This document shows positions 2,873-31,238 of a stretch of DNA of 34,080 nt, piece by piece. Each line of letters starts with the position of its first letter. Positions within the stretch are counted from its first letter, which is position 1. The DNA comes from a virus: IMG/VR virus record IMGVR_UViG_3300035182_001197, positions 1-34,080 of that record; one strand, 5' to 3'. A model generated the notes under the pieces. That model did not search any database. It saw only the letters and a list, made by a program, of their open reading frames with translations, and was not told where the DNA came from. A program made the translations under genes and the position numbers.

Positions 2873-4759
2873 TTATTTCTCCCAGCCTTCAAATTCTATA
2901 CTTTCCGATCTATTTAATTGGTCAAATTCGTTTTGCGGAATCTCAAACTCTTCTGTTTTGGGCTCCGGTTCTTCGAATTCAAAATGCTCACTTGCTCCGG
3001 GAATCGTTAGTTGGGAAAGATGATGGGGCTGAACCTTATTGGCCATTTCATTAAACCGTCGATGAAGTTTTTTAGCTACAGTAAAATATTTTTGATAATG
3101 CATATTTTCTAGTTCTTTAGCTTTATCAAAACGTTTGTTTTCCGGTGTCTGAGTAAGAATTGACCTATCTAGATCAGATCTTACATAGGGAGGCAGATAG
3201 TCTTTGAAAGCATTTCTTTGACCGCTTGAATTTAATATATTTAATATTTTTGCATAATACTCATCTGGAGGATTGTCGGAATAAGATCGCTGTTCTTTGT
3301 CCATTGCTTGTTTAAATTCTGGTATTCCTTGAATGCCTTCTTTTTCCATACTTTTATAAGCCATATCCAATAAATTTCTTTGAATGTTTTGTATATGTGG
3401 GCGTGCCATTCTTACGCCTTCTGGAGTTTTGATCCCCCATAGACGAGCGTCCATAGCATGTGAATTTTCATGAAGTTTAGTACCAATTACATCGTTTGGA
3501 TCTTTTATCCTATTTAAAGCCCGTTCATAAGTCTTTGGATCGGGTTTTTTACCATTTTCTAAATCTAAATTATATTTCTCTCTAATAGCGGCGGCGCGCA
3601 TATCTTCATTCAAAGCATATCCGGTCGTCGGTTGACGTATTCCCCAAGCACTTTCTAAGGCTTTTTCTGGAATTTTTTTGCCAGTATTTATTTGTTCTTC
3701 TTGGTTGGGAACCCCTAAATACGCCTGTGCGTGTTTATTTCCAAGTGCCCGGTAATCTTCATCGCCTGGAATTTGGAAATCATTTAACTTCTTTTCATTA
3801 TCGACAATAGTTGGCTTGCCGCCAGCAGGATCTGGTGTTATAGTTCTAGTAGAGATAGGGCCGATAATCGGAGTATCTCGTCTGTCGTCGCCTTTAGGTG
3901 AATGGGCAGTACCTAGTAATCCAGCCCATTTTGGTGCAGACTGTATCTTTTCAAGCTCTGATTTCTTAATGCCTAGTTGCTGAGCAATTTTATCAAAACC
4001 TGCCTGCAACGCTGGCGAAATAGATGGATTAGCTTGAGGTTTCTTCTTAAGCCACGGTTTTTCTAACTTACTTTTCTTCCATGCTTGGACATATGGATCG
4101 TTAGCAATTAGATCTGGATCTTTAGCAAAGTCTTGCTTAGCTTTATTTATACCATGTCGCCAACCATAAGCAGTGACATCGGGATTTTGGGTTTCATTTA
4201 GATTCCCACTCCATGTACTTCGGCCCAATTCATTGTAAAAGTCGGGGTCTGACTTGAACTTCTTGATAAAATCGGTCTTACTAGCTATATCGGTGTACTT
4301 ACCTTGTAATCTTTGACTATTTTTATAAGTATCAAAGGCGACCATTGGCTTTAAGCCGACTGGACCATGGGCTGTATTCCAATCTGTCAGATTTTTAGCA
4401 TGATTCATGTTACTTCCATATTGAGTTTCATTTATGGAAATAGCTTTAAGATCATCATTTAATCCTTCTGGCTTAAATTGGGGTTCAGCTTCAAACGTGT
4501 CTGGCTCATTTTCAGAATTCGTTTGTAAAAATTTAGGTTTGACCGGAGCAGCCATAGCCGCTGGCTTAATCTTAGATTGGCCCGGAGCGTTAATTGCGTT
4601 AATTGTAGGCTTATTTACCTCACCTACTGGCTTTTGAGGCGGGGTTGACCCACCTGCTCCTAATGTTAAGTGAGCGGCTAACAAAGCAGCACTACCGAAT
4701 TTTTTTTCCAAGGATTCGGCTTGATTCAAAAGGTCTTTTAATTCCTTCTTTTTAGACAT
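2873..4759 (-). CDS. HExxH zinc-metallopeptidase-like virion-module protein
   Basis: 628 residues, mostly hydrophilic and low complexity in the first 330. An HENSH motif at residues 430-434 matches the HExxH zinc and catalytic signature of gluzincin-type metallopeptidases. A candidate third ligand is E500 in PDEYYAK, with a helical C-terminus. The N-terminus is a predicted amphipathic helix followed by LTLGAGGSTPP (31-41). Its L-x-L-G-x5-P spacing matches the segment shared by the capsid protein and the protease-kinase. The start overlaps the connector gene's stop by eight bases, and the stop abuts the kinase-like gene. The family is not recognised. Peptidase activity is inferred from the motif alone; a virion-borne protease or a degenerate structural protein are both possible. 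Confidence 0.65.
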   Translation of the reverse strand: MSKKKELKDLLNQAESLEKKFGSAALLAAHLTLGAGGSTPPQKPVGEVNKPTINAINAPGQSKIKPAAMAAPVKPKFLQTNSENEPDTFEAEPQFKPEGLNDDLKAISINETQYGSNMNHAKNLTDWNTAHGPVGLKPMVAFDTYKNSQRLQGKYTDIASKTDFIKKFKSDPDFYNELGRSTWSGNLNETQNPDVTAYGWRHGINKAKQDFAKDPDLIANDPYVQAWKKSKLEKPWLKKKPQANPSISPALQAGFDKIAQQLGIKKSELEKIQSAPKWAGLLGTAHSPKGDDRRDTPIIGPISTRTITPDPAGGKPTIVDNEKKLNDFQIPGDEDYRALGNKHAQAYLGVPNQEEQINTGKKIPEKALESAWGIRQPTTGYALNEDMRAAAIREKYNLDLENGKKPDPKTYERALNRIKDPNDVIGTKLHENSHAMDARLWGIKTPEGVRMARPHIQNIQRNLLDMAYKSMEKEGIQGIPEFKQAMDKEQRSYSDNPPDEYYAKILNILNSSGQRNAFKDYLPPYVRSDLDRSILTQTPENKRFDKAKELENMHYQKYFTVAKKLHRRFNEMANKVQPHHLSQLTIPGASEHFEFEEPEPKTEEFEIPQNEFDQLNRSESIEFEGWEK

Positions 4760-19463: not shown

Positions 19464-22310
19464 TTATATCGAGAATAACAGACCGCCCGGCTTGCCAGTT
19501 ACTTTAACCTCTCCATCGGAGGCGTCAATTCCCGCCTTTTTCTGAATCCAGCCTTCATTTGGGTCTCTTTGGTATATTTTATTATTATCATTAAATACCA
19601 TAACCGCTTTTGACTTGTTTAATGGCACGTTTTGGCATAAATATCTAAATGCATCTAATTCGTCGTCATCTTGACTATCCGGCTCATCCGTTAGATTGCC
19701 CTGTGGATCGATTTTCCAGTGGTATCCGACTATCTTAGTAGCCAAGAATTCACAGCCAGGATCTTCCTTAAGTAAGAATACTGATGGAGGAAGGCCGTTT
19801 CCGGGCATTATACGCTTTCTTGCATTTTCAATACCTAATTGAACTTCTTTTTTAAAGTTAATCATTCTAAAACCCGCCATTCTAAACGATTTAACGTCTG
19901 AAGGATAGGCGTTATCTGGATATATGGCGGGGTTTAATGGAGTAAGCTTTTCTTTACATAGTTCGATTCTTTGCTGTAATTCCAAGCCCTTAGCTGAAAT
20001 TACGTCTATTATATAAAGAGTGTGACCTAATAGCGCCGCTGTAACTACAGCGAAATTATGAGTAAAGCCCCAGTCTAGTCCACAATAAAATTCAGCTCCC
20101 ATTCTTTTAAATATCTCTATTAGCTCTGCCTTATTTAAATGGTCAGGAAATTCTTCACCAGTAGCCCTTCTTGCCATGTCTGCGGCAGACAATAAATGCT
20201 TTTCTCTTTGAAAATTAGGATAAATCTTACCTTCTGAGGACGGTAAATAACACATTAATTGAGCACGAGCTAGATCTACCGATATAGTAGAAAATAAGGG
20301 CTGTACGTGGTTGATTTTCTTTAATAACTTACTGTCTGATGTTTGCTTAGTAGCTAAACGCCCCTTACATTGAGCAAAGAGTTTACAATTTTGTAAACAG
20401 CCTTTATAGCCCATTTTAACGTCCCATTGAGCTTTTTCTTTTTCAGATAGCAAGTCGTGTTCTGCTTTGCTAATCGCCCGTAAATTATTTTCAGAAAAAT
20501 AAATGGGGATTTGTGGTTCTTCTGGCAAATGCCTCTTAGGTGGGCATCTTTCGGTTACGTCAATAATATTCCAATGGCGTATATTTAAGCCGGTCCTATG
20601 GCTAGCGTCGATTTCTTGCTGAACTAACCCGAATGAATATTTTCTAGTAGAGGTAAGAAAGGTAATGGGTAGCTGTCCGTCATCCCCCATTGATGGAATC
20701 ATCTTGCTTTCGTCATAAGCGGCGGGTTCTGATAGATCTAGTTCGTCGCAATTTTTAACTAAAACCCCATTGGCTATGAAGTTATGGTTGTCTTTAACGG
20801 TAAAATCAATTACCCAGTCTTCGCCCATAGGTTCAATAGACTTGATAATGTCTACTTTAATTGATTTTGACTGGGCGGCAACACACATTTGATTACCGCA
20901 AGTAACTGCGGATTTACCCAGCATTGCTGGATAGTATTGTTTTTTACAAAAACGGCATTCTTTTTGTGGTGATATGTCAAATTTATACATCATGGTCGGG
21001 TGTATGTATTTTTTGCAAATCTTAAATAATTCTTTTGAGTTATTAGAGTAAAACCCATATAATAATTTTTGAGTATATCCGCTTTTAGCTGTCTTATTTT
21101 GAGTGAATTTAAGTTTTTGGCTTAATTTATTCAATTTCCAATCTAAATAATCTTTTTGCGCATAACTATGTTGTTCTTTAAAGCAAGAATTTGATGTTTG
21201 TCCCCTATAGACTCCAGCATCTCCTAATAATGAACCTATTAATGTCTGTTCAAAACAATCGGATATCGGCTCTTTATATTTAATTTTTATATCGCTAACT
21301 ATAGGCAATAATTGTTTCTTAGCCATTGATTGTGTTTTATATATTCTTAAAACTCCGTCTCCGATGTTTAAATCTTTAACTTCTTTATAACCATTAAGCG
21401 TCATTATTGGATGATTTTCGGTACAGACTAAATTTTTACCACTTTCTAATGAAATTTTAAATACTTTTTTAAACGATCTTCTTGTAGCTATTATGGGTTT
21501 AAATTCAAATAAGCCATTTTTATAATTAAATGATAAAACTTCAATATTTTCTTGAACATTTTTTGTAAATCCTTCTAATTTATTTTTAATATTTGGAGAA
21601 AATCCCATTAATCTATTAAAAATTACTCCAGCTTTAGCTGGTATTCTATCTCGTTTATTTTTAATGCTATTATTTTTGATTAAAATTTCACTTTGATCTG
21701 AAACACAAACGAAAAAAGGGGCGTGAAGCCCGTTAGCTCCACCAACCGTAGCGATAACGATCTTAATCCAACTAACCTTTTCTTCATAATTCTTCTTTTC
21801 ATGATCAGTTAGTTTATTGAATTCGGCTGGAGAAATAGATCTAGATCCATCCATAGATAAATATCTAGTAATTTCTATTTGTCTTTTGTTCTTAGAGGTC
21901 ATAAATTCTCTAAGAATTGGACGTTTAAAATAACCCTCTATATATCTCTGGCAATTGTTAGCTTGAGCTTCTAATGCCGCCATATGGCCAACATTACGAC
22001 CGAGGTGGAACATACATAAAGTTTCAAGAATGGCTGCTGATAGCGTCTTAAAACTATCTCTAGCTGCGAACCCTAATACGCGAGTAAATGTTTCATCTTG
22101 GCCATTTCTCGCTTTTGAGTATATTTCCCAAATTAAATCCATTGGGCTTGAATTGCTTGAAGGATTCCTGACCTCATCATCACATACAATTACATTAGGC
22201 ACGTCAATACCTAAATATATCTTAATCCACTTATGTAAGTGTTCCTTGGTGTCACACGGAATGAATAATGCTTTTCTGAGTATCTCTTCTTGTTCTTCTT
22301 TACTTAGCAT
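19464..22310 (-). CDS. Terminase large subunit, interrupted by an intein
   Basis: 948 residues as translated, about 629 after removal of a 319-residue intein. The ATPase domain has a divergent Walker A GFAARDSFKT (residues 80-89) and a Walker B PFFV-CDELD that is split by the intein just before CDE. The RNase H-like nuclease shows GLDWGFTHNF, YPDNAYPSD and DDDELDAFRY, giving the expected acidic residues. A cysteine cluster (CLQNCKLFAQC) lies between the domains. It packages DNA with the small terminase and portal. A frame extension upstream would need TTG, so I chose the ATG at 22310, which overlaps the small-subunit stop by 11 bases. Confidence 0.9.
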   Translation of the reverse strand: MLSKEEQEEILRKALFIPCDTKEHLHKWIKIYLGIDVPNVIVCDDEVRNPSSNSSPMDLIWEIYSKARNGQDETFTRVLGFAARDSFKTLSAAILETLCMFHLGRNVGHMAALEAQANNCQRYIEGYFKRPILREFMTSKNKRQIEITRYLSMDGSRSISPAEFNKLTDHEKKNYEEKVSWIKIVIATVGGANGLHAPFFVCVSDQSEILIKNNSIKNKRDRIPAKAGVIFNRLMGFSPNIKNKLEGFTKNVQENIEVLSFNYKNGLFEFKPIIATRRSFKKVFKISLESGKNLVCTENHPIMTLNGYKEVKDLNIGDGVLRIYKTQSMAKKQLLPIVSDIKIKYKEPISDCFEQTLIGSLLGDAGVYRGQTSNSCFKEQHSYAQKDYLDWKLNKLSQKLKFTQNKTAKSGYTQKLLYGFYSNNSKELFKICKKYIHPTMMYKFDISPQKECRFCKKQYYPAMLGKSAVTCGNQMCVAAQSKSIKVDIIKSIEPMGEDWVIDFTVKDNHNFIANGVLVKNCDELDLSEPAAYDESKMIPSMGDDGQLPITFLTSTRKYSFGLVQQEIDASHRTGLNIRHWNIIDVTERCPPKRHLPEEPQIPIYFSENNLRAISKAEHDLLSEKEKAQWDVKMGYKGCLQNCKLFAQCKGRLATKQTSDSKLLKKINHVQPLFSTISVDLARAQLMCYLPSSEGKIYPNFQREKHLLSAADMARRATGEEFPDHLNKAELIEIFKRMGAEFYCGLDWGFTHNFAVVTAALLGHTLYIIDVISAKGLELQQRIELCKEKLTPLNPAIYPDNAYPSDVKSFRMAGFRMINFKKEVQLGIENARKRIMPGNGLPPSVFLLKEDPGCEFLATKIVGYHWKIDPQGNLTDEPDSQDDDELDAFRYLCQNVPLNKSKAVMVFNDNNKIYQRDPNEGWIQKKAGIDASDGEVKVTGKPGGLLFSI
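20751..21707 (-). mobile_element. Class 1 intein in TerL at the Walker B site, with LAGLIDADG-type insert
   Basis: 319 residues from Cys1 (CVSDQSEILI) to a final Asn (FIANGVLVKN), followed by Cys+1 (CDELDLS). Block B is GKNLVCTENHPI with T-x-x-H, and block F/G is DFTVKDNHNFIANGVLVKN. The penultimate residue is Lys rather than the usual His. A homing-endonuclease-type helix TLIGSLLGDAGVY (155-167) is present, but I see no second LAGLIDADG helix. Instead a C4 zinc-finger candidate (C251, C254, C270, C275) follows. The DNA is visibly more AT-rich than the flanking exteins, consistent with separate origin. Splicing would rejoin FFV-CDELD. Confidence 0.9.
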
Positions 22311-22932
22311 TTTGTTCTCTTGTAGCAATTAAGTCAAGCAATTCGCTGGCTGCCGCGCTACTTACTCTCTTAGCTTCTGGACCTTTCATTTCACTAGTAA
22401 CTGCATGTAAATGCTTAACTGTTCCACCAACCATTACTTCTTTCTTATCGCCAGTTCCTTCAGTAAGTAATTTTAACATAGTTAAGATTTCTTTATAATT
22501 CTTCAAAGAACTTGGATCAAATCCTTGTAATAGCTCTTGATTACCTTCTTGGAGAAATTGTGCTACCTTATCCCCCCAAATCTTATGAGCAGCCGCAAGT
22601 AGGTCAGATAAATGACTCAATGCATCTTGTTTAACCTTATAGACCTTACGCTCGACTTGACTATGCAAAGCCATTAACTGACGATCGCGTCTTATATCCC
22701 AATTTAAACGGTCTTTAGCGTCAATTATAGCACCGTATTCAAAGGCTCCGCCATTTGCTTTAAAGATTTGCTCACAAGTATAGCCGTTTAAATAGAGTTC
22801 ATACATCTTTACCGCTGTTGGAAGTGGGACGGGGAGTTCCTTTTTTCGCTTCCACTCCCTTAGCGCGAACTCTTCTTCGTCCGGCACTAGTTTTTCCGTC
22901 TGTGGTATTGTCAGTTCCTTGGGCGATTCCAT
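22300..22932 (-). CDS. Terminase small subunit (probable)
   Basis: 210 residues encoded immediately upstream of TerL. Residues 37-75 fit a helix-turn-helix DNA-binding unit (AVKMYELYLNGYTCEQIFKA and following). Residues 85-160 are predicted helical and could drive oligomerisation, and the C-terminus is helical. This layout matches phage small terminases, though sequence alone does not prove it. A ribosome site AAGGA lies seven bases before the ATG at 22932, which supports the long form even though its first 134 bases overlap the upstream gene in another frame. Confidence 0.65.
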   Translation of the reverse strand: MESPKELTIPQTEKLVPDEEEFALREWKRKKELPVPLPTAVKMYELYLNGYTCEQIFKANGGAFEYGAIIDAKDRLNWDIRRDRQLMALHSQVERKVYKVKQDALSHLSDLLAAAHKIWGDKVAQFLQEGNQELLQGFDPSSLKNYKEILTMLKLLTEGTGDKKEVMVGGTVKHLHAVTSEMKGPEAKRVSSAAASELLDLIATREQNAK

Positions 22933-28029: not shown

Positions 28030-29067
28030 ATGAATCAAGGCCCCTTCAACAAGAATTGTGAACTTTTACTCATTCATATCGAAAACATGAATAATGGTAA
28101 AATGAAGAAATGCAATGCGACGACGACTTACTTGGCTAAAGCTATTGGCAAATCAGAGCGTCAAACATATCGGTATTTAACCCATTTACAAAAGAATGGA
28201 TTAATCGTTCGAGAAACCAGCAAGCTATCAAGAGACAAGAAGAGGAACAATCTCTATAAGCTTCGCAGCATTAAAACGACAGAAAAGGTGGAAAAACATC
28301 CACAGAAATATGATATATTGAGCTTAACGTTTAATAAGGAGCTTCATGGTCGTGTACGCAACCGTATGACTAAGGAAGTTACTAATGGAGCGTTCTCAAC
28401 CCCAAACTTAGGGAGCAAGCCTAAAACAGTTAAAATAGAGGCAATGTCTTTTGCGCCAGCAAACTTTACTGTAGAAAAGGTTGCAGAAGTCGTTAAGAAT
28501 ACAACTTACATAGCCTATCTACCTCCAGTAGAGATCAAGGAAGTAAAAGATAACATGACTATTTACGAAGAAAACATGAAGAAGATTGAGGAAGAGAAGA
28601 AGAACTCGACCTTCCGCAAGTCTCTAGCCGAAAAGGGCATGGAATTTAAAGAATATAAGAAAGAAGACTTCATCAGTAAGGAAGAACTTGAACGACTAGA
28701 CGCTGAACAAATCTTTAATTCAAACAGAGACAAGGAAGCAGAAAAAATCCTTATTGACAAGAATCTTGGGAAACTAGCGTCTAAGGGCGAGAACGTAGAA
28801 ATTTTGGTTAAACATACAATAGACAATTATAGAGCTATTTATGCCAGATTAGAAGAGTTTTGCCCAGAAGAAGATTTTGAAATTCGTGATAGAATGGAAA
28901 TGTTCGCACAGAATAGTATATTTGAAAACGGGAAATATATGTATACTCTGAATCTTGGACGTAGTTTGAGCTACAAGCTAGACATATTCGATTATGTACC
29001 TTGGAGTAAGGACCACAAGAATTTTGAGATATACTTAGCATTTATGAAGGAAATGGGGAAAATTTAA
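28030..29067 (+). CDS. Winged helix-turn-helix protein (regulator or replication initiator)
   Basis: 345 residues. Residues about 11-80 form a winged helix: LLLIHIENM, then TTYLAKAIGKSERQTYRYLT (helix-turn-helix) and LQKNGLIVRETSKLSRDKKR (wing). The middle is linker-like and highly charged (190-240), and the C-terminus is alpha/beta with many aromatics. The frame extends to 27970, but that part would cover the promoter, so I chose the ATG at 28030. It is the first gene of the rightward operon and borders the repeat-rich region, so it may bind those repeats; that is inference. An O-type replication initiator is an alternative. Confidence 0.65.
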   Translation: MNQGPFNKNCELLLIHIENMNNGKMKKCNATTTYLAKAIGKSERQTYRYLTHLQKNGLIVRETSKLSRDKKRNNLYKLRSIKTTEKVEKHPQKYDILSLTFNKELHGRVRNRMTKEVTNGAFSTPNLGSKPKTVKIEAMSFAPANFTVEKVAEVVKNTTYIAYLPPVEIKEVKDNMTIYEENMKKIEEEKKNSTFRKSLAEKGMEFKEYKKEDFISKEELERLDAEQIFNSNRDKEAEKILIDKNLGKLASKGENVEILVKHTIDNYRAIYARLEEFCPEEDFEIRDRMEMFAQNSIFENGKYMYTLNLGRSLSYKLDIFDYVPWSKDHKNFEIYLAFMKEMGKI

Positions 29068-31238
29068 TGAATTCTTATAGAAAAGCAAAAACAGTAGCAA
29101 AGGATATGTTAGTTAATGGTCCAAGCCTTGAAAAGAAGGTCTTAGACACAATGAAAATTATTTCAGATATGGTTGGCTCAACATTGGGCCCCAGTGGTAG
29201 GCCGGTTCTAATCGAAAGGCAAGAGTACGGTCTGCCTCACATCTTTACTAAAGACGGTGTAACGGTGTTTCGCAATCTTGGTTTTCAAGACCCCACTGCC
29301 CATGCAATTATGGAGGCGGCAAGAGACGCCTCGGTAAGAACCGCCTCGGAAGCTGGCGACGGGCCACAGCCTTTATGGAGTAAGATCCTAACTCCGGAAG
29401 GATTTATTTTTATGGGTGCTGCTCGTAAAGGAATGAAAATTTGCGGAACCAACGGAACTATTCAAGAAATTATAGAGGTTTACGAAAAAGGGGCTAAAGA
29501 GATTTGGCAAATTCATTTTTCAAAAAATAGAATTGTAGAATGTAGTTTTGACCATTTATGGTCTGTAAAACATGAGTTTTATGGAAAAATAAGCAAAAAA
29601 ACACAAATTATAACCACCAGAGAATTATATAGAAGGCTTAAATTAGGAATGAAATCTTTTACTCCAAACTTCATGGGGGAAGGAGATGGTGATGAAGTAA
29701 TAAGAATCACTCCTACTAATAAAGTAGGTGAAATGCGTTGCATTAAAGTAAGTAATCCAGATAATCTTTATATAACGGACAATTTTGTAGTTACTCACAA
29801 CACAACTACCGCCACTGTTTTAGCGGAAGCTATTGTTCGTCGTACACATGAGTATTGCAAGAAGCATCCAACCGTCTCTCCACAAAAAGTAGTTCGCCAT
29901 CTAGAAGAAGTTTTTTCTTCGAGTATTTCTCCGTTTATTAAAAGCCATAGTATGGAAGCGGATGAACAAATGCTTAAGTCTGTAGCTAAGTTATCAGCTA
30001 ACGGCGACGGAGAATTAGCTGACGCAGTTATGAGGTGCTTTGATGTTATTGGCGATGACGGCAACATTATAATTAATGAACAATCAGGCCCCTCAGCTTA
30101 TGAGGTGGAATTCACCAAGGGATATCCCATAGGAATGGGGTATGAGGAAAGCTGCGGTAAGCTATTTCCTTTGTTCTTAAACGATAAGAAGAATAACCGA
30201 ACCTTCCTAGAAAAGCCTGTATTTTTACTGTATTTTGGTGCAATTACACAAATACAGACTATAGAGAAATTAATGCAAACCGTAGGTAGTGCATGGGAAA
30301 ATCCACAACACCACGACCTCGAAAAGCCATTTAACTACAATGTCGTTATCGTAGCTACTGGATATTCAGAAGCCGTACTAGGAGATTTATCGGCAAACTT
30401 CTCACATCCTCACACTATTAACGTTTTCCCATTATTAACTCCAAAATCACCCGTTAGTAGCGGTGAAATGCATTTTCTATATGACTTAGCGGCAGTTACC
30501 GGAGCCACGGTATTTGATCCTATTGGTCGCCCCATAGAGAACGCAACCTTGCAGGACCTAGGTTATGGTATTGAATCGTTTGAAGCTACCAGATACCGCA
30601 GTACAATTCTTGGGTTATCAGATGATACATTAATAGAAGTTCGGGCTGACGAGCTTCGAGAGTCACTAAAGACCTCTGATAGTAAATATGATTCAAGCTT
30701 TATTCAAGAAAGACTAGCTAAGCTTACTTCTGGTATCGCAAAGCTTAAGGTAATCGGCCCTTCCAACGGTGAATTACGTGAAAAGCGAGATCGTGCAGAA
30801 GATGCTACGTTCGCTGTACGTGGAGCTAAGAATCACGGCTGCTTACCGGGCGGTTGCTGGACGTTACTAAAGGTTAGCCAAAACCTACCAGATAATGAAA
30901 TTAATAATGAGATACTAATACCTGCATTAATGGAACCTTTAACTAAGATTTTAACTAATTGCGGTATGCATACTGAAGAAATAGATGAAATTGTACACAA
31001 GCTAAGCAATACGGATTCACTTGTTTATGACGCAATGCAACATCAATATGTAGATGCGCGTCATTCCGGTATTTTAGATAGCACTCCTGCTGTTTTAGAA
31101 GCAGTACGGAATTCAATCTCTATAGCCAGTATGTTAGGTACGTTAGGTGGTTCAATAGTATTTCGTCGGGACGAACAGATGGAACTATCAGAAGCTCAAA
31201 ACGCTGTTGAAGCTGAAAAATCATTCTTAGGTGACTAA
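29067..31238 (+). CDS. groEL: Phage GroEL chaperonin, interrupted by a mini-intein
   Basis: 723 residues as translated, 577 after intein removal, close to GroEL (about 545). LGPSGRPVLIE (40-50), TKDGVTVFRNL and SEAGDG...TTTATVLAEAIVRR give the nucleotide site. GCLPGGCWTLLKVSQNLP corresponds to the GroEL GVVAGGG block, and TPAVLEAVRNSISIASML to the last equatorial helix. The Gly-Gly-Met tail is absent. It folds phage or host proteins, probably capsid components, likely with the GroES-like product of 24215-24499. The start overlaps the previous stop (TAATG). The intein splits GDG from TTT (E. coli G88/T89), the phosphate-binding loop. Confidence 0.9.
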   Translation: MNSYRKAKTVAKDMLVNGPSLEKKVLDTMKIISDMVGSTLGPSGRPVLIERQEYGLPHIFTKDGVTVFRNLGFQDPTAHAIMEAARDASVRTASEAGDGPQPLWSKILTPEGFIFMGAARKGMKICGTNGTIQEIIEVYEKGAKEIWQIHFSKNRIVECSFDHLWSVKHEFYGKISKKTQIITTRELYRRLKLGMKSFTPNFMGEGDGDEVIRITPTNKVGEMRCIKVSNPDNLYITDNFVVTHNTTTATVLAEAIVRRTHEYCKKHPTVSPQKVVRHLEEVFSSSISPFIKSHSMEADEQMLKSVAKLSANGDGELADAVMRCFDVIGDDGNIIINEQSGPSAYEVEFTKGYPIGMGYEESCGKLFPLFLNDKKNNRTFLEKPVFLLYFGAITQIQTIEKLMQTVGSAWENPQHHDLEKPFNYNVVIVATGYSEAVLGDLSANFSHPHTINVFPLLTPKSPVSSGEMHFLYDLAAVTGATVFDPIGRPIENATLQDLGYGIESFEATRYRSTILGLSDDTLIEVRADELRESLKTSDSKYDSSFIQERLAKLTSGIAKLKVIGPSNGELREKRDRAEDATFAVRGAKNHGCLPGGCWTLLKVSQNLPDNEINNEILIPALMEPLTKILTNCGMHTEEIDEIVHKLSNTDSLVYDAMQHQYVDARHSGILDSTPAVLEAVRNSISIASMLGTLGGSIVFRRDEQMELSEAQNAVEAEKSFLGD
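29364..29801 (+). mobile_element. Class 3 mini-intein in GroEL
   Basis: 146 residues starting with Pro1 (PQPLWSKILTPEGFIFMGAA) rather than Cys or Ser, and ending LYITDNFVVTHN, then Thr+1. The W-C-T set that defines class 3 inteins is present: Trp at block B (DHLWSV, residue 66), Cys at block F (MRCIKVS, residue 126) and Thr as first extein residue. Class 3 inteins start splicing from the block F Cys, which explains the Pro1. No endonuclease domain is present. Removal restores AGDG-TTTATVL exactly. Confidence 0.9.

Follow-up and report, generated by a model that had tools for sequence, protein, structure and literature searches.

The window considered here, i.e. the whole stretch of DNA that was analysed, comprises 34,080 bases of a virus record and encodes a 723-aa GroEL homologue at positions 29067–31238 on the plus strand. 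The ORF matches the chaperonin profiles Pfam Cpn60_TCP1 (8.4e-26), NCBIfam PRK00013 (4.1e-68, below the full-length cutoff) and phrog_5725 (1e-74), and together with the ATPase residues these matches identify the host protein as a group I chaperonin. GroEL residues D63, G97-D98-G99, T246, D579 and D671 are invariant in an alignment of 28 precursors. From the alignment with PDB chains and the usual E. coli numbering, D63, D98, T246, D579 and D671 are presumably equivalent to D52, D87, T89, D398 and D495 of E. coli GroEL.

The nearest named relative of this protein is the GroEL of Myxococcus phage Mx1 (48.9% identity), the gene for which is uninterrupted. The alignment of the two stops at G99 (...SEAGDG) and restarts at T246 (TTTATV), leaving residues 100–245 of the window ORF (29364–29801) with no GroEL counterpart. 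The insert consists of 438 nt, or 146 in-frame codons coding for P100–N245, located exactly between GDG and TTTATV. It is flanked by an N-extein of GroEL residues 1–99 ending in ...SEAGDG (29067–29363, plus strand) and a C-extein of GroEL residues 246–723 with the stop codon (29802–31238, plus strand), both of which are recognized by GroEL matches. When the ORF is matched to PDB GroEL chains, the site lies between Gly88 and Thr89 in E. coli numbering. The preliminary description of this DNA gave the same coordinates, which are exact, and its placement of the insertion between GDG and TTT of the phosphate-binding loop is borne out by the Mx1 alignment. The locus thus possesses an in-frame insert, precise extein boundaries and an empty site in homologues, as generally expected of an intein. 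The insert has a lower GC content than the exteins (0.329 vs 0.461 and 0.409), but this carries little information, since 8% of 438-nt windows are equally low.

Other genes in the window code for SbcC- and SbcD-like proteins, a helicase, a sigma factor-like protein, a portal protein, a major head protein and a terminase. The gene content and the best matches of GroEL and the terminase among deposited phages suggest that the window phage may be a distant relative of Mx1. The 160-kb IMG/VR record 3300035661_000009 shares 99.99% identity with the window across 10,014 compared bases, and it was the only record returned by single-protein searches of viral contigs with GroEL or the intein as the query. 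No GroES match was detected in this 160-kb relative, in which a distant GroES could still be present; some phages are described as encoding a GroEL-like protein only (PMC7185714).

The large terminase ORF (19464–22328, minus strand, 954 aa) contains a second intein, matching Pfam Intein_splicing (1e-13) and LAGLIDADG_2 (1.1e-6), which ends in ...VKN before Cys and has a class 1-like look. The Mx1 terminase matches the window terminase in two pieces with 61% covered, so the corresponding site in Mx1 is probably empty.

Signature residues and predicted fold of the insert

Class 3 inteins are defined by Trp at B:12, Cys at F:4 and Thr at G:5 (the WCT set) and by the lack of a required N-terminal nucleophile, and they usually have Ser or Thr at position +1 (PMC5222942, PMC3196547). 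The insert (29364–29801, plus strand, from P1 to THN) is 146 aa long and starts with the non-nucleophilic Pro1 (29364–29366), preceded by the scissile Gly-Pro bond; Pro occupies this position in all but one of the 37 distinct GroEL inteins, the exception having Cys. It carries no Cys, Ser or Thr at position 1, including the Cys/Ser nucleophile of class 1 inteins. The catalytic His64 of block B:10 (29553–29555) and Trp66 of block B:12 (29559–29561) are invariant in all 34 aligned sequences, two of which come from other hosts. Cys126 of block F:4 (29739–29741), the proposed first nucleophile, is kept in 34/34 aligned and 37/37 distinct sequences. Next come Thr144 of block G:5 (29793–29795), assigned to this position after PMC5222942 and PMC3196547, and the penultimate His145 with the terminal Asn146 (29796–29801), the pair expected to serve in Asn cyclisation, the THN end being present in all 37. 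Thr+1 (29802–29804), also found in 37/37, is the equivalent of GroEL Thr89 according to the PDB match coordinates and is proposed to serve as the C-extein nucleophile and then as an ATP phosphate ligand (PMC3053311).

The identification of the insert as a class 3 mini-intein made in the preliminary description is therefore backed by the signature, the fold and the relatives presented below, with two corrections. Trp66, Cys126 and Pro1 are as described there, but the T of WCT is Thr144 rather than Thr+1, and Pro1 does not define the class, which is set by WCT and the dispensable N-terminal nucleophile.

The best sequence matches in the PDB are weak yet span the signature (query of 147 aa, including one extra Gly): MchDnaB1 6rix (E 7e-4) and 6riy (0.002), gp41-1 6riz (0.0011) and M. 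smegmatis DnaB 6bs8 (0.0023). On Pfam Intein_splicing the insert reaches 16.5 bits with a cutoff of 35.8, and it has no NCBIfam match. The AlphaFold2 model of the insert, based on an alignment of 34 sequences, has a pLDDT of 93.6 and a predicted HINT fold. The top three solved folds are the class 3 DnaB inteins 6bs8, 6rix and 6riy (Z 19.5–19.7, rmsd 1.8–1.9 Å over 127–128 residues), tied with Prp8 inteins (Z 19.1 and 18.8), so the fold says intein only and the class assignment rests on the signature residues. In the precursor model, confidence is below 50 at both intein junctions. The mycobacterial DnaB inteins from M. smegmatis (6bs8) and MchDnaB1 (6rix/6riy) resemble the window intein in HINT fold, size, WCT and the THN end but differ in having a helicase host and only about 20% identity. 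No LAGLIDADG match up to E 1, as would mark the endonuclease of a homing intein, is present in the window precursor or the insert.

Inteins at the same boundary in other phage GroELs

A search of viral contigs with the DNA pattern HN/TTTATV yielded 17 loci, of which 15 are GroEL genes with an intein ending in THN/TTTATV and two are chance matches. An alignment search gave 57 loci: 49 with a GroEL junction (L040–L085, L093, L095 and L096), including the partial L093 and the frame-broken L057 and L058, and eight in other hosts. Leaving aside the window's record, both sets together come from 51 distinct contigs with lengths of up to 204 kb.

Complete inteins, called if they started at GDG/xQP and had HN as their last residues, followed by T, S or C, were found at the same GroEL codon boundary in 61 of the 75 loci examined, the window included, several of these loci sharing one contig. 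The other 14 are the partial L009 and L093, the chance matches L014 and L020, the frame-broken L057 and L058, and L086–L092 and L094 from other hosts. The 61 complete inteins represent 37 distinct sequences, which fall into 34 clusters when grouped at 90% identity. H-x-W, Cys F:4, THN and Thr+1 are present in each of the 37, and the first residue is Pro in 36 and Cys in L005. HN/T was pre-selected in the 15 DNA-pattern loci, and the alignment search selected PQPL or [DE]MxCIKV, which biases the Pro1 and Cys F:4 frequencies among the loci added by that search; its patterns did not include H-x-W or THN. Five of five further precursors scanned match Pfam Cpn60_TCP1, and the remaining hosts were identified as GroEL from the junction sequences, with an alignment in addition for 28 precursors.

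A search for the same site, as proposed in the preliminary description, was made here in viral contigs and led to complete inteins at 61 of the 75 loci examined. The window insert is not a chance occurrence, since these 61 share one codon boundary and 37/37 distinct sequences keep the catalytic residues. Judged by sequence, phage GroEL is a recurrent home of putative class 3 inteins at a single site.

In L057 and L058 the intein frame is broken around positions 3676–3725, after the N-terminal part, with the rest in another frame. A natural split intein was considered for these loci and rejected, as both contigs show a frame break, attributable to decay, error or frameshifting.

Most GroEL inteins are considerably longer than that of the window: 34 of the 37 distinct sequences are 311–339 aa, and the three minis, namely L041, the window and L042, are 139, 146 and 150 aa, respectively. 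LAGLIDADG_3 was matched in all three long precursors scanned (L048 and L062 above the curated cutoff and L055 below it) and in none of the three mini precursors. A GroEL extein tree of 38 rows, built by a quick method with SH-aLRT as the only support measure, places the window in one starred set with mini L041, full-length L055 and the empty Mx1. Outside this set, mini L042 is sister to full-length L053, so the mini state requires at least two changes. These placements mean that empty, full and mini states lie close together.

Related inteins in deposited phages (60 listed of 752 records) reside, where annotated, mainly in helicases and terminases. Phage Walker A inteins at K/T (L034–L039), hosted by helicases, terminases and other ATPases, show GK/A...THN/T in 6/6 cases and occupy the phosphate loop directly before Thr, like those at the GroEL site. 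They are longer, endonuclease-type and class 3-type, and they differ in possessing Ala1 and a Walker ATPase host, whereas nearly all GroEL inteins have Pro1 and sit in the different phosphate loop GDGTTT. An insertion of this kind, the TerL1-a intein, has been called a 'classic' P-loop insertion (PMC5050341). The non-GroEL relatives with Pro1, L086, L087, L088 and L092, start with PQPLYSK or PQPLYAK like the GroEL inteins, and the complete end THN/T was read in L086 and L088, but the junctions of all four are non-chaperonin.

The chaperonin gp146 of phage EL is a GroEL homologue like that of the window, with no intein mentioned for it in the part of PMC7185714 available, whereas the window GroEL is intein-bearing. 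Mobile elements of another kind, group II introns, occur in or near groEL in Azotobacter and cryptophyte plastids (PMC8393795, PMC4465626), but those are RNA introns and the window element would act by protein splicing. According to the preliminary description, GroEL is not known as an intein host; consistently, no GroEL intein was found in the accessible text of the open-licence PMC literature. GroEL is likely to be a new intein host protein, which is likely rather than proven because the literature covered is that of open-licence PMC. GroEL would then be a new host and GDG/TTT a new insertion site, used repeatedly by one class 3 family, and the bias of such inteins for the phosphate loop just before Thr would extend beyond Walker ATPases.

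Occupied and empty sites

Uninterrupted GDGTTTATV was found at at least 120 loci in viral contigs, at least 117 of them giving ORFs longer than 150 aa. With 15 occupied loci against at least 117 uninterrupted ones at the TTTATV motif, at most about 11% of such loci carry an intein. Among 84,980 bacterial and archaeal species genomes, the pattern HN/TTTATV, which covers only sites of this form, occurred at 12 loci, none of which is in GroEL according to the frames read. In deposited phages, the GroEL site is spanned in one piece in 58 of the 60 rows listed of 198 records, the other two starting beyond the site, and all seven deposited-phage GroELs read directly are empty, with GDGTTT. A C-junction query against deposited phages returned 25 records, none of which matched over 80% of the query, the only GroEL-annotated one being Mx1, matched by the extein part alone. 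No GroEL-annotated carrier of the intein is present among these 25 or among the 30 listed of 131 records matched by another junction query, some rows being unannotated.

Among the matches listed, the empty L144 is the closest to any one of the 31 intein-bearing GroELs compared, showing 95.5% amino acid identity to L071 over 578 aa. The DNA of the two contigs is about 91% identical on either side, for 1.9 kb before the site and 1.8 kb after it, and the BLAST alignment breaks exactly between positions 3500 and 4518 of L071, which corresponds to a clean 1017-nt insertion at the GDG/TTT codon boundary. The pair is compatible both with a gain in one phage and with a loss in the other.

Horizontal transfer is partly supported by the comparison of intein and extein trees, for which the pairs were chosen after seeing the trees; neither of the truncated precursors L060 and L081 is included in these. 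The intein of L059 pairs with that of L064, with an SH-aLRT of 94 for full-length inteins and 99/93 when the splicing domain is used, whereas this clade is rejected by the exteins (AU p 3e-64). The intein data are nevertheless compatible with L048+L064, a pairing seen in the exteins (p 0.14), and the extein data with L043+L053 (p 0.38). The incongruence being mixed, mobility rests instead on the occupied and empty pair of L071 and L144.

Proposed splicing and its alternatives

The insert is highly likely to be an active class 3 mini-intein, derived from a longer LAGLIDADG-bearing family that colonises GDG/TTT in the GroELs of large phages, and to be spliced out to give a 577-aa GroEL. We infer splicing and its steps, the block to ATP binding in the precursor and homing as follows. 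In the precursor, the intein would sit inside the ATP phosphate loop. Cys126, aided by His64, Trp66 and Thr144, would attack the Gly99-Pro1 bond, the N-extein would be transferred to Thr+1, and Asn146 would cyclise, with the exteins joined as GDGTTTATV in a normal 577-aa GroEL; this order is that of the known class 3 scheme (PMC7664689, PMC5222942). Thr+1 would act as the splicing nucleophile first and later, as the Thr89 equivalent, as an ATP phosphate binder. Simulations of GroEL show the beta and gamma phosphates bound by Thr89 and Thr91, with Asp87 kept near the ATP (PMC3053311). The unspliced precursor is very probably unable to bind ATP, because the equivalents of Asp87 and Thr89 are 146 residues apart. 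The longer relatives presumably home by means of their endonuclease, and the window copy may have lost the endonuclease and persisted because splicing was retained.

The insert might alternatively be, in line with the timing of chaperonin activation suggested in the preliminary description, a conditional regulator whose slow or condition-dependent splicing delays chaperonin assembly until a certain stage of infection or stress, to the benefit of the phage. Since the ATP loop is interrupted, splicing must precede activity, and there are three persisting endonuclease-free minis (of the lengths given above) with at least two changes to this state on the GroEL tree; the DnaB inteins of M. smegmatis are, moreover, described as differentially responsive to stressors (PMC6195587). 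Beyond the position of the insert, however, nothing points to a condition, a sensor residue or timing, and the site is empty in most GroELs with the motif, which makes regulation an unlikely explanation. A mobile selfish element accounts no less well than a timing regulator for the restricted spread, the endonuclease-bearing relatives and the occupied and empty pair. A selfish element would also have to splice well because it is sited in an essential loop, the conservation of which preserves the homing target too. A stronger version, in which one Thr side chain is used twice, class 3 splicing across Gly-Pro gates ring assembly and the onset of ATPase activity, and the minis are kept as a useful gate, appears equally doubtful.

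It could also be supposed that the intein is dead or only cleaves, with no splicing, and that the phage makes do with the GroEL of its host or with the cleaved fragments. Inteins that are no longer mobile may subsequently decay. L057 and L058 do carry a frame-broken GroEL intein, and the class 3 intein of Arth_1007 is a pseudogene (PMC3196547), but the latter lacks Cys F:4 and His B:10, whereas the window has an open GroEL frame with His64, Trp66, Cys126, Thr144, His145, Asn146 and Thr+1 all intact and the ATPase residues kept in the C-extein, so that decay seems very improbable here. Least credible of all is that the insert stays in place permanently as an additional stable domain of a functional GroEL. 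On either side of the insert the precursor model does match GroEL folds, and the insert alone is predicted to fold as a compact domain; such a domain would nevertheless part the equivalents of Asp87 and Gly88 from those of Thr89–91, which make joint ATP contacts (PMC3053311), and the known splicing residues are kept in 37/37 sequences.

As a probably active class 3 mini-intein, the window insert belongs to a family in which empty, endonuclease-bearing and mini states are found side by side across divergent phage GroELs, which offers a clean system in which to ask if splicing can act as a gate on the formation of a large oligomer. The family would also comprise natural Pro1 inteins that, if active, splice across a Gly-Pro bond. 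Cleavage of Gly-Pro is required here, and the class 3 literature, as far as its text was available, yielded no experiment with an intein of this class that starts with Pro. One member, L005 (IMGVR_UViG_3300025018_000138), begins with Cys (GDG/CQPLW) and keeps WCT and THN/T, and it could in principle use either the class 1 or the class 3 route.
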